NCBI GenBank assembly: GCA_903853805.1
Contig: CAINUN010000069.1
Location: 1-64,000 of the forward strand
Direction: 5' to 3'
Length of the DNA stretch: 64,000 bases
Origin: an uncultured Bacteroidota bacterium
Lineage (GTDB): Bacteria; Bacteroidota; Bacteroidia; Chitinophagales; Chitinophagaceae
The position numbers were made by a program, and so were the translations under genes. Position 1 is the stretch's first letter. Each line of letters begins with the position of its first letter. Under the pieces are notes generated by a model. The model was not told the origin of the DNA. It made no database searches and was given only the letters and a program-made list of their open reading frames with translations. Of this stretch, positions 1-42,486 are shown piece by piece.

Positions 1-277
1 AAATAACAGCTGAAAAGAGGGCAAAAAAGCCCTCTAAAGCAATAAAAGTGAATACAAAACTAAAAATAGCAGCTAAATCTAACTAAAAATAGACGAAATG
101 TTAATGGATGCAGGTGCGGTTTTGTTTTGCAATGGTCTTATGGTATTAATGATGGGTGTGAATTGGCTTATACCATTGCCCAAAATATACTATACCATTT
201 CCTCAAATGGACTATGTCATTTTGATATAGGGGGTAATCTCTTTCCTAAAAGCAACTAATAATTTTGAATAATAGCT
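1..277. other. intergenic region left of the metH fragment
   Basis: No coding frame of convincing length is seen here. The only structured element is a hairpin at 16-35. Two imperfect copies of a TATACCATT-containing motif lie near 169-202, about 21-22 bases apart. No B12-binding or activation domain of MetH is encoded in this stretch. Confidence 0.5.
16..35. terminator. perfect 7-bp hairpin, probable terminator
   Basis: AGAGGGC and GCCCTCT flank a six-A loop. The hairpin lies near the window edge and could end a transcript coming from the left or the metH transcript on the minus strand. No strong U-tract is seen on the plus side. Confidence 0.45.
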
Positions 278-41909: not shown

Positions 41910-42065
41910 TTACTTCGGTTGAGGCGGCGCGGTGCCTCCATCTTTCTTACTCGTTTTCTTACTCAGCATATTGTTGTAGTTATCAATCACCCCATTAAAG
42001 TCGACGAGGGCTTTGGGAAAATCGCCCGATGCTTTTTTATGCCATTTATAAAAAAGATTTCCCAT
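41910..42065 (-). CDS. small hypothetical protein, start set by a 42-bp repeat
   Basis: The core is 51 residues, MGNLFYKWHKKASGDFPKAL and onwards to a Lys-rich and Pro-rich tail (KKTSKKDGG, PPQPK). No family is recognised; a short helix with VDFNGVIDNYNNML is likely. The frame stays open upstream through all 42-bp repeats to 42233, and each repeat supplies an in-frame ATG, so the protein could carry zero to four 14-residue units of the type MESIPRKERKQSTW. I set the start at the ATG nearest the unique part. That this is a real gene is not certain. Confidence 0.4.
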   Translation of the reverse strand: MGNLFYKWHKKASGDFPKALVDFNGVIDNYNNMLSKKTSKKDGGTAPPQPK

Positions 42066-42244
42066 CCATGTGGATTGCTTGCGTTTCTTCCATGGAATGC
42101 TTCCCATACATGTGGATTGCTTGCGTTCCTTCCGAGGAATGCTTTCCATCCAAGTGGATTGCTTGCGTTCCTTCCGAGGAATGCTTTCCATCCATTTGGA
42201 TTGCCTTCGTTCCTTCGGCGGAATGCGCTCCATCCACGTGGATG
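42061..42244. repeat. 42-bp tandem repeat, four units plus a partial fifth
   Basis: Units lie at 42061-42102, 42103-42144, 42145-42186 and 42187-42228, with a 16-base partial copy at 42229-42244 that is the perfect palindrome CATCCACGTGGATG at its end. The middle two units are most alike. Within each unit, GCGTTCCT and AGGAATGC can pair around a TCCG loop in the better copies, so every unit can form a small hairpin. The unit length is a multiple of three and lacks stops in several frames, which is why long open frames run through it on both strands. Confidence 0.9.
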
Positions 42245-42486
42245 AATAGTTTTTTTTAGAAAAAGGCAGGCAAAGTATTTGTTTTTAATTATTTGTTTGG
42301 AAAGAGTGCCTTTATTTTTCTAAAAACTAAGATTATGATGAAAAAATCCTCTTTGTGGCGGTGATGATGGAGTTGGTGAAGAGCGAGAAAATAATCTTAA
42401 ACCGCTAAGTCGGAGAGGCGCATAGGCGTAAAGAATCCACCCTTTACAACTTTGCGACTTCACCACTTTACAAAATAGAAAAGGAA
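42245..42486. other. intergenic stretch between the repeat and chrA
   Basis: No supported gene is seen. It is A/T-rich with a few G-rich patches (TGATGATGGAG, GTCGGAGAGGCGCATAGGCG). No clear hairpin terminator for chrA was found. An open frame on the minus strand over 42320-42616 has no codon or motif support. Confidence 0.4.

Follow-up and report, generated by a model that had tools for sequence, protein, structure and literature searches.

A tandem array of 42-bp units in the window (the whole 64,000-nt stretch analyzed here, part of contig C69 of a 3.5-Mb genome in 106 contigs) belongs to a class of arrays in which the unit sequence is private to the locus and the unit length is 41 or 42 bp (units of 21, 63 and 84 bp also occur in this genome). 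Arrays of this class lie upstream of genes of the DUF6261 family and of a second uncharacterized family for which we coined the label MEQY; some type IX secreted-protein genes of this genome are preceded by them too. We hold this descriptive part with high confidence. In the complete explanation, the window copy is an orphan of the class and an intact array serves as a helix-phased platform for a protein; we give this whole reading a probability of roughly 0.4. It is improbable that the 42-base repeats encode part of a small protein, the idea first raised in a sequence-only reading of the same DNA.

Arrays of fixed unit length upstream of DUF6261 and MEQY genes

DUF6261 matches were found in 12 of 395 genomes of a phylum sample (11 above cut-off), and MEQY matches in 31 of 396 genomes of the order. 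From 25 DUF6261 loci, with one locus listed for most places, we used 22, leaving out L199 and L204 for their short frames and L205 for falling below the cut-off; from 30 MEQY loci, about one per genome and taken from a much larger number of matches, we used 28, as L249 and L253 had no readable frame there. The genomes are of varied completeness and the gene starts are longest-frame guesses. A broad scan for lags of 30–55 in the 600 bp upstream of these 50 readable loci was passed by 40 of them, with the best lag at 42 in 23 loci, at 41 in 17 and at no other value, and the remaining 10 had no array by this test. Outside this genome 35 of 45 loci passed, and the passing arrays comprise 2.4–10.1 tandem units before the gene. 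Among control genes, 1 of 233 in DUF6261-bearing genomes (at lag 44), 0 of 173 in members of the bacterial family and 4 of 197 in congeners passed; the last four are two places, each counted from both neighbours, and both look by eye like groES coding sequence beside groEL. Genes neighbouring the target loci passed in 10 of 50 cases, at lags 41 and 42, which is taken to reflect the shared intergenic space. In a sample of this genome's own genes, 10 of 250 passed, seven of them at lag 42.

For DUF6261 a narrower test (350 bp upstream, lags 38–45) gave the same picture: 16 of 22 loci passed (12 of 18 outside this genome), none of 234 control genes in five DUF6261-bearing genomes did, and none of the 22 DUF6261 downstream regions rose above shuffles. 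Repeats elsewhere in those genomes are rare, with three of at least 60 bp in 400 kb (periods 22, 35 and 15). Relatives of the DUF6261 protein on contig C97 number four in this genome and none in six congeners, and all four DUF6261 genes of this genome have an array with a period of about 41 or 42, 86–183 bp upstream. MEQY genes have an upstream array at 20 of 28 readable loci (19 of 27 outside this genome) and a downstream array at none of the 28; several MEQY arrays are near-perfect and reach about ten units.

The unit sequence follows different rules from the unit length. DUF6261 pairs with at least 70% protein identity had related arrays in six of six cases, compared with 3 of 147 at lower identity, and MEQY pairs in the one case above 90% identity and in none of 230 below it. 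These pairs indicate that array sequence is common mainly to close protein relatives while the unit length stays fixed. Two of the three low-identity DUF6261 exceptions pair this genome's C97 array with two arrays of one other genome. The L193 array matches the L206 and L211 arrays, which belong to DUF6261 loci of different bacterial families with proteins less than 50% identical; either common ancestry or convergence towards a TTTCGGGAA-like dyad could account for the match.

Dyads are enriched in the units (18 of 40 at p < 0.05 versus 12 of 80 in control DNA) and far from universal. One subfamily has a dyad of 18 pairs that covers almost the complete unit, with 78.9% of cells paired versus 28.6–46.7% when slid; as high a covariation score arose in 1 of 500 shuffles, and as many pairs with two-sided changes in 181 of 500, the latter number not being unusual. 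The arm-versus-arm test in hairpin units, in which 142 of 2000 permutations scored as high, is only suggestive. Ten of 22 DUF6261 segments fold with z ≤ −4 on at least one strand, including that of L192, which has no array, and the other 12 do not. The common feature is the fixed length, not a fold. In the 120 bases leading up to the start codon, 13 of the 50 loci carry a TAnnTTTG box, the Bacteroidetes −7 motif (shuffles: mean 4.3, maximum 11), and a simple scan for a hairpin followed by a T-run found a terminator-like site between array and gene at only 1 of 40 loci; therefore the array tends to sit upstream of the promoter.

Several neighbouring observations concern the families themselves. 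The array-less DUF6261 gene at L192 1411–2157 (genome G176) has one very long upstream hairpin (z −12.8), and its next frames resemble cas genes by eye. Searches for viral relatives of three proteins confirmed none, and turned up a 25% identical DUF6261-like stretch (L266 4253–4900) in MT837725.1, an unannotated 6.3-kb record of a phage of human faecal origin. A query with one DUF6261 protein returned no solved structure. A possible third array-linked family of about 230 residues, without a solid Pfam match, is found at L102 1035–1718, L103 559–1257 and L112 630–1319, with upstream arrays in L102 and L112.

A proposed helix-phased platform and its rivals

Since 41 or 42 bp is close to four whole helical turns while the sequence is free, we favour a reading in which an intact array is a DNA platform immediately upstream of a promoter. 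With a period of about four turns (42 = 4 × 10.5; 21 = two turns), the units would all expose one and the same helix face. The product of the adjacent gene, or a partner of it, is the simplest candidate for a protein that would bind successive units on that face and thereby set the promoter output. The unit sequence may drift along with its binder and the unit length may not; the copy number would tune the output with the phase unchanged. The hint in the sequence-only reading that copy number might exert control over a neighbouring gene survives in altered form, with the array upstream of promoters; its main idea, start codons added to a small gene, is not supported. For the platform speak the lag of 41 or 42 at 40 of the 50 DUF6261 and MEQY loci, with controls near zero in DUF6261-bearing genomes and members of the bacterial family, the arrays before all four DUF6261 genes of this genome, the relatedness of arrays between close protein relatives, the excess of TAnnTTTG boxes and the strongest intergenic lags of this genome (given below); against it speak the 10 loci without an array, the many units without a dyad, the arrays that lie beside other genes or between convergent genes in this genome and whose sampled flanks show no further DUF6261 or MEQY relic, and the lack of any known DNA-binding domain above the cut-off in the DUF6261 and MEQY proteins scanned with Pfam, domain libraries holding described families only.

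This genome carries far more than the target loci. In 464 kb of it (the window plus 20 stretches of 20 kb) we counted 18 intergenic arrays of at least 80 bp, about one per 26 kb, and none in 383 kb of five congeners or 340 kb of four members of the bacterial family. The best TRF (Tandem Repeats Finder) period was 42, 63 or 84 in 13 of the arrays, 22 or 66 in three, 85 in one and 99 in one. The strongest intergenic lags are 42, 21, 84, 63, 126 and 105, the signal at lags 21 and 42 having z 11.5 and 14.5 here versus 2.5 and 2.4 in congeners, and the 21/42-bp signal persists after the arrays are masked. Among 24 own-genome arrays, six of which were taken from loci chosen for secreted-protein genes, the window array and its relative on contig C66 match each other and the rest are unrelated, so the unit sequence is otherwise private. 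When the flanks of the 18 sampled arrays were scanned for DUF6261 or MEQY relics, the sole match was the intact L130 gene, with the window's own stub (see below) too weak to pass. RAYT/IS200-like transposases were considered and discarded: the genome has five Y1_Tnp matches (four above cut-off), and the five fetched loci, some of them cut by contig ends, hold no 21/42-bp array. Rfam gave no matches at 12 loci.

One rival is a neutral origin, in which a replication or repair process specific to the lineage would yield duplications of two or four helical turns without selection. Unrelated units at one per ~26 kb sampled, beside many kinds of genes, fit it well, as does the signal left after array masking, which fits a mutational process and counts against the platform. 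As an account of this genome it is strong; for the two-family link elsewhere it is weak, leaving 40 of 50 loci versus 1 of 233 control genes unexplained in genomes where other repeats are as rare as given above. We consider a purely neutral origin unlikely, and together with an RNA antitoxin it forms the main rival to the platform.

In the RNA antitoxin alternative, modelled on type III toxin-antitoxin loci, the array would be transcribed, its repeat RNA cut once per unit, and the RNA would restrain the downstream protein. The layout of several tandem units before one gene at 40 of the 50 loci, the privacy of the arrays, the strong folds of some segments (the ten with z ≤ −4, array-less L192 among them) and the covarying dyad of one subfamily all suit such a locus; the near absence of terminator-like sites between array and gene (1 of 40), promoter-like boxes in that same interval, many arrays that fold no better than shuffles and a length locked at 41/42, which would be unexpected, do not. 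Moreover, no toxin of the ToxN, CptN or TenpN type scored above cut-off in the DUF6261 and MEQY proteins scanned with Pfam, PADLOC and NCBIfam, the one sub-threshold PADLOC match being PbeC (E 0.021). We regard this alternative as rather improbable. Still less probable is an insulator, in which hairpins or cruciforms upstream of the promoter would block read-through or absorb supercoiling: the position upstream of promoter boxes and the excess of dyads over control DNA would suit it, but many arrays have no clear dyad or fold, and a fixed period would be unnecessary.

Returning to the platform, a period locked to whole helical turns over unrelated sequences points to a physical ruler, and DUF6261 and MEQY, both without known function, gain a first handle in their close association with a repeat whose length is fixed while its sequence is free. 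With some reserve, we suggest that such loci may represent an undescribed kind found across the Bacteroidota, consisting of a gene of an uncharacterized family (DUF6261, MEQY and perhaps more) and a private upstream array with a length locked at 41/42 and a free sequence; such pairs with a four-turn ruler may be a device for self-recognition or DNA labelling rather than ordinary regulation, and this species would have spread 21-bp-phased arrays widely between its genes. A search of the open-licence literature found no description of private 41/42-bp arrays upstream of genes.

The window copy and its counterpart on contig C66

TRF recovered the roughly four and a third 42-bp units described by the sequence-only reading with 87% matches and a score of 266 (Table 1), and that reading was also right about the in-frame minus-strand ATG, which every full unit contains, and about the perfect palindrome of the last partial unit. 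Its hairpins hold as well: the five-base arms of ATCCA-NN-TGGAT are fully paired in nine of the ten full units of the window array and its C66 relative, and the window array folds more stably than its dinucleotide shuffles do (z −5.2 on the minus strand and −8.3 on the plus strand). With its head-to-tail period of 42 the array falls in the 41/42 class, and its units are contiguous and alike along the whole length, not the like repeats with unlike spacers of a CRISPR. A short intergenic repeat at window positions 169–222 (22 bp × 2.5) may belong to this class as a small member.

Table 1 Features of the window around the array
Feature	Positions	Strand	Basis
Open frame through the array, 107 residues, judged not a gene	41910..42233	-	Translation, comparison with C66, congeners, codon positions
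Probable DUF6261 C-terminal stub (end of the 51-residue frame)	41910..42028	-	HMM score, alignment, absence from C66
Array flank common to window and C66	42029..42061	.	Homology stops at 42029
Tandem array, 42-bp units × 4.3, judged non-coding	42062..42243	.	TRF, unit comparison, related C66 array (L004 8724-8992)
Perfect 14-base palindrome CATCCACGTGGATG, last partial array unit	42231..42244	.	Sequence reading
Leader from array to start of secreted-protein gene, likely promoter inside	42244..42334	+	42288-42370 recurs at other loci
Type IX secreted-protein gene remnant	42335..42408	+	First 36 and last 42 bases joined at common ATGG; stop after nine codons
3' flank of secreted-protein gene	42409..42485	+	Common to C66 and other loci of the genome

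A genome search for further copies, which the sequence-only reading had called for, found one other site, the 6.4-unit array on C66, and not many scattered copies; no related array was found in 98 relatives. A degenerate pattern of the unit matched one stretch among genome contigs, in a planctomycete record where the surroundings hold no array, and nothing among viral contigs. A mobile or dispersed repeat family is accordingly rejected, the single other site lying inside a longer duplicated segment. The window and C66 are homologous in two blocks, 42029–42370 (within it an alignment block at 42059–42370) and 42367–42485 in window coordinates. On C66 the array sits between intact genes, in the order MEQY gene (259 aa), array, leader and secreted-protein gene, and the product of the last has a type IX sorting domain (Por_Secre_tail, PF18962, E 1e-9).

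In the window, the array that on C66 precedes an intact MEQY gene precedes a weakly scored DUF6261-like stub only. Outside the repeat, the 51-residue frame resembles the DUF6261 C-terminus, scoring 10.6 bits (E 0.03) with an HMM of 23 family members, where the best of 2000 shuffles reached 5.5 bits; Pfam's own model (PF19775) gave no match to it. For so short a piece the score is modest evidence of a DUF6261 resemblance, and the frame looks like array sequence fused to a DUF6261 C-terminal stub, the remains of a partner that has probably been gutted. On the other side, the type IX secreted-protein gene is, judged from its joined ends, internally deleted. As both neighbours seem to be almost wholly gone, the window array is probably an orphan and a relic.

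The secreted-protein genes have features of their own, and type IX genes mark the organism as a member of the Bacteroidota. The paralogues at L004 7765–8634, L099, L100, L101 and L098 are nearly identical in leader and start, conserve a C-terminal domain and differ in their middles. The ends of contigs C89 and C8 hold an identical 126 bases upstream of the secreted-protein leader. Much as in the window, a further secreted-protein stub at the start of C93 (L098 361–470) has its beginning joined directly to its end, and it lies beside degenerate repeats. Arrays of 8-base units occur at a contig end or beside secreted-protein genes, namely CTACAAGC × 13.4 at L112 1–107, AGCCTACA × 5.1 at L103 143–183 and TTGTAAAG × 4 at L004 7700–7731.

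The weakest rival, in which copy number would alter the N-terminus of a small protein, rests on the minus-strand frame 42233..41910, which reads MERIPPKERRQSKW, MESIPRKERKQSTW, MESIPRKERKQSTC and MGSIPWKKRKQSTW before continuing as MGNLF. It has an ATG per unit, and the differences between the window and C66 arrays fall 2/4/8 on codon positions 1/2/3, a third-position lean (8 of 14) too small to serve as evidence. The following observations stand against it. First, all six frames of the array are open (column-shuffle mean 2.1), so openness singles out no coding frame and is weak evidence for coding; the in-frame ATGs are a by-product of a stop-free 42-base unit. Second, the tail of the frame outside the repeat resembles a gene stub and is missing at C66, where the frame is not kept but continues into different sequence, overlaps the start of the next gene and leads nowhere. 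Third, arrays of the same class exist with periods of 41, 43, 61, 22 or 85, which break any frame; with a period of 41 in the class a reading frame cannot be kept. At last, the regions downstream of tyrS in five congeners hold no comparable frame, and a search for relatives of the 51-residue peptide in 98 other genomes gave none scoring below E 0.003. The coding minisatellite is disfavoured and retains a very small probability, and of the other option in the sequence-only reading, a mobile repeat that merely happens to be open, the openness by chance is supported and the mobility is not. Some open repeats that resemble coding minisatellites can be explained simply by the array class.

Comparison with known systems

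The iterons of plasmid origins are direct repeats at whole-helical-turn spacing; they precede a gene, and its protein may bind to them. The arrays described here are likewise direct repeats of about whole turns upstream of a gene, with binding by its product putative. They differ from iterons in having a free unit sequence with a length of 41/42, and in their genes: the DUF6261 and MEQY proteins scanned have no Rep domain above cut-off, and 72,556 plasmid records searched with three of them gave no match. Type III toxin-antitoxin loci (ToxIN, CptIN and TenpIN) carry several tandem repeats before one gene, private to the locus. The array class has the same arrangement and the same privacy, unlike them in that 39 of 40 loci have no terminator-like site between repeats and gene, no toxin domain was matched, and the fold is not general. 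Variable-number tandem repeats upstream of promoters place tandem units in the position seen here, and a difference in unit number, as between the window and C66 copies (4.3 versus 6.4), is shared with them; in contrast, the array class holds a length of 41/42 across unrelated sequences. Sets of intergenic TAACTGA heptamer repeats are described ahead of numerous unrelated genes, some Bacteroidetes included (PMC4679880). They repeat one fixed 7-base sequence (PMC4679880), whereas the present arrays keep their unit length and leave the sequence free.
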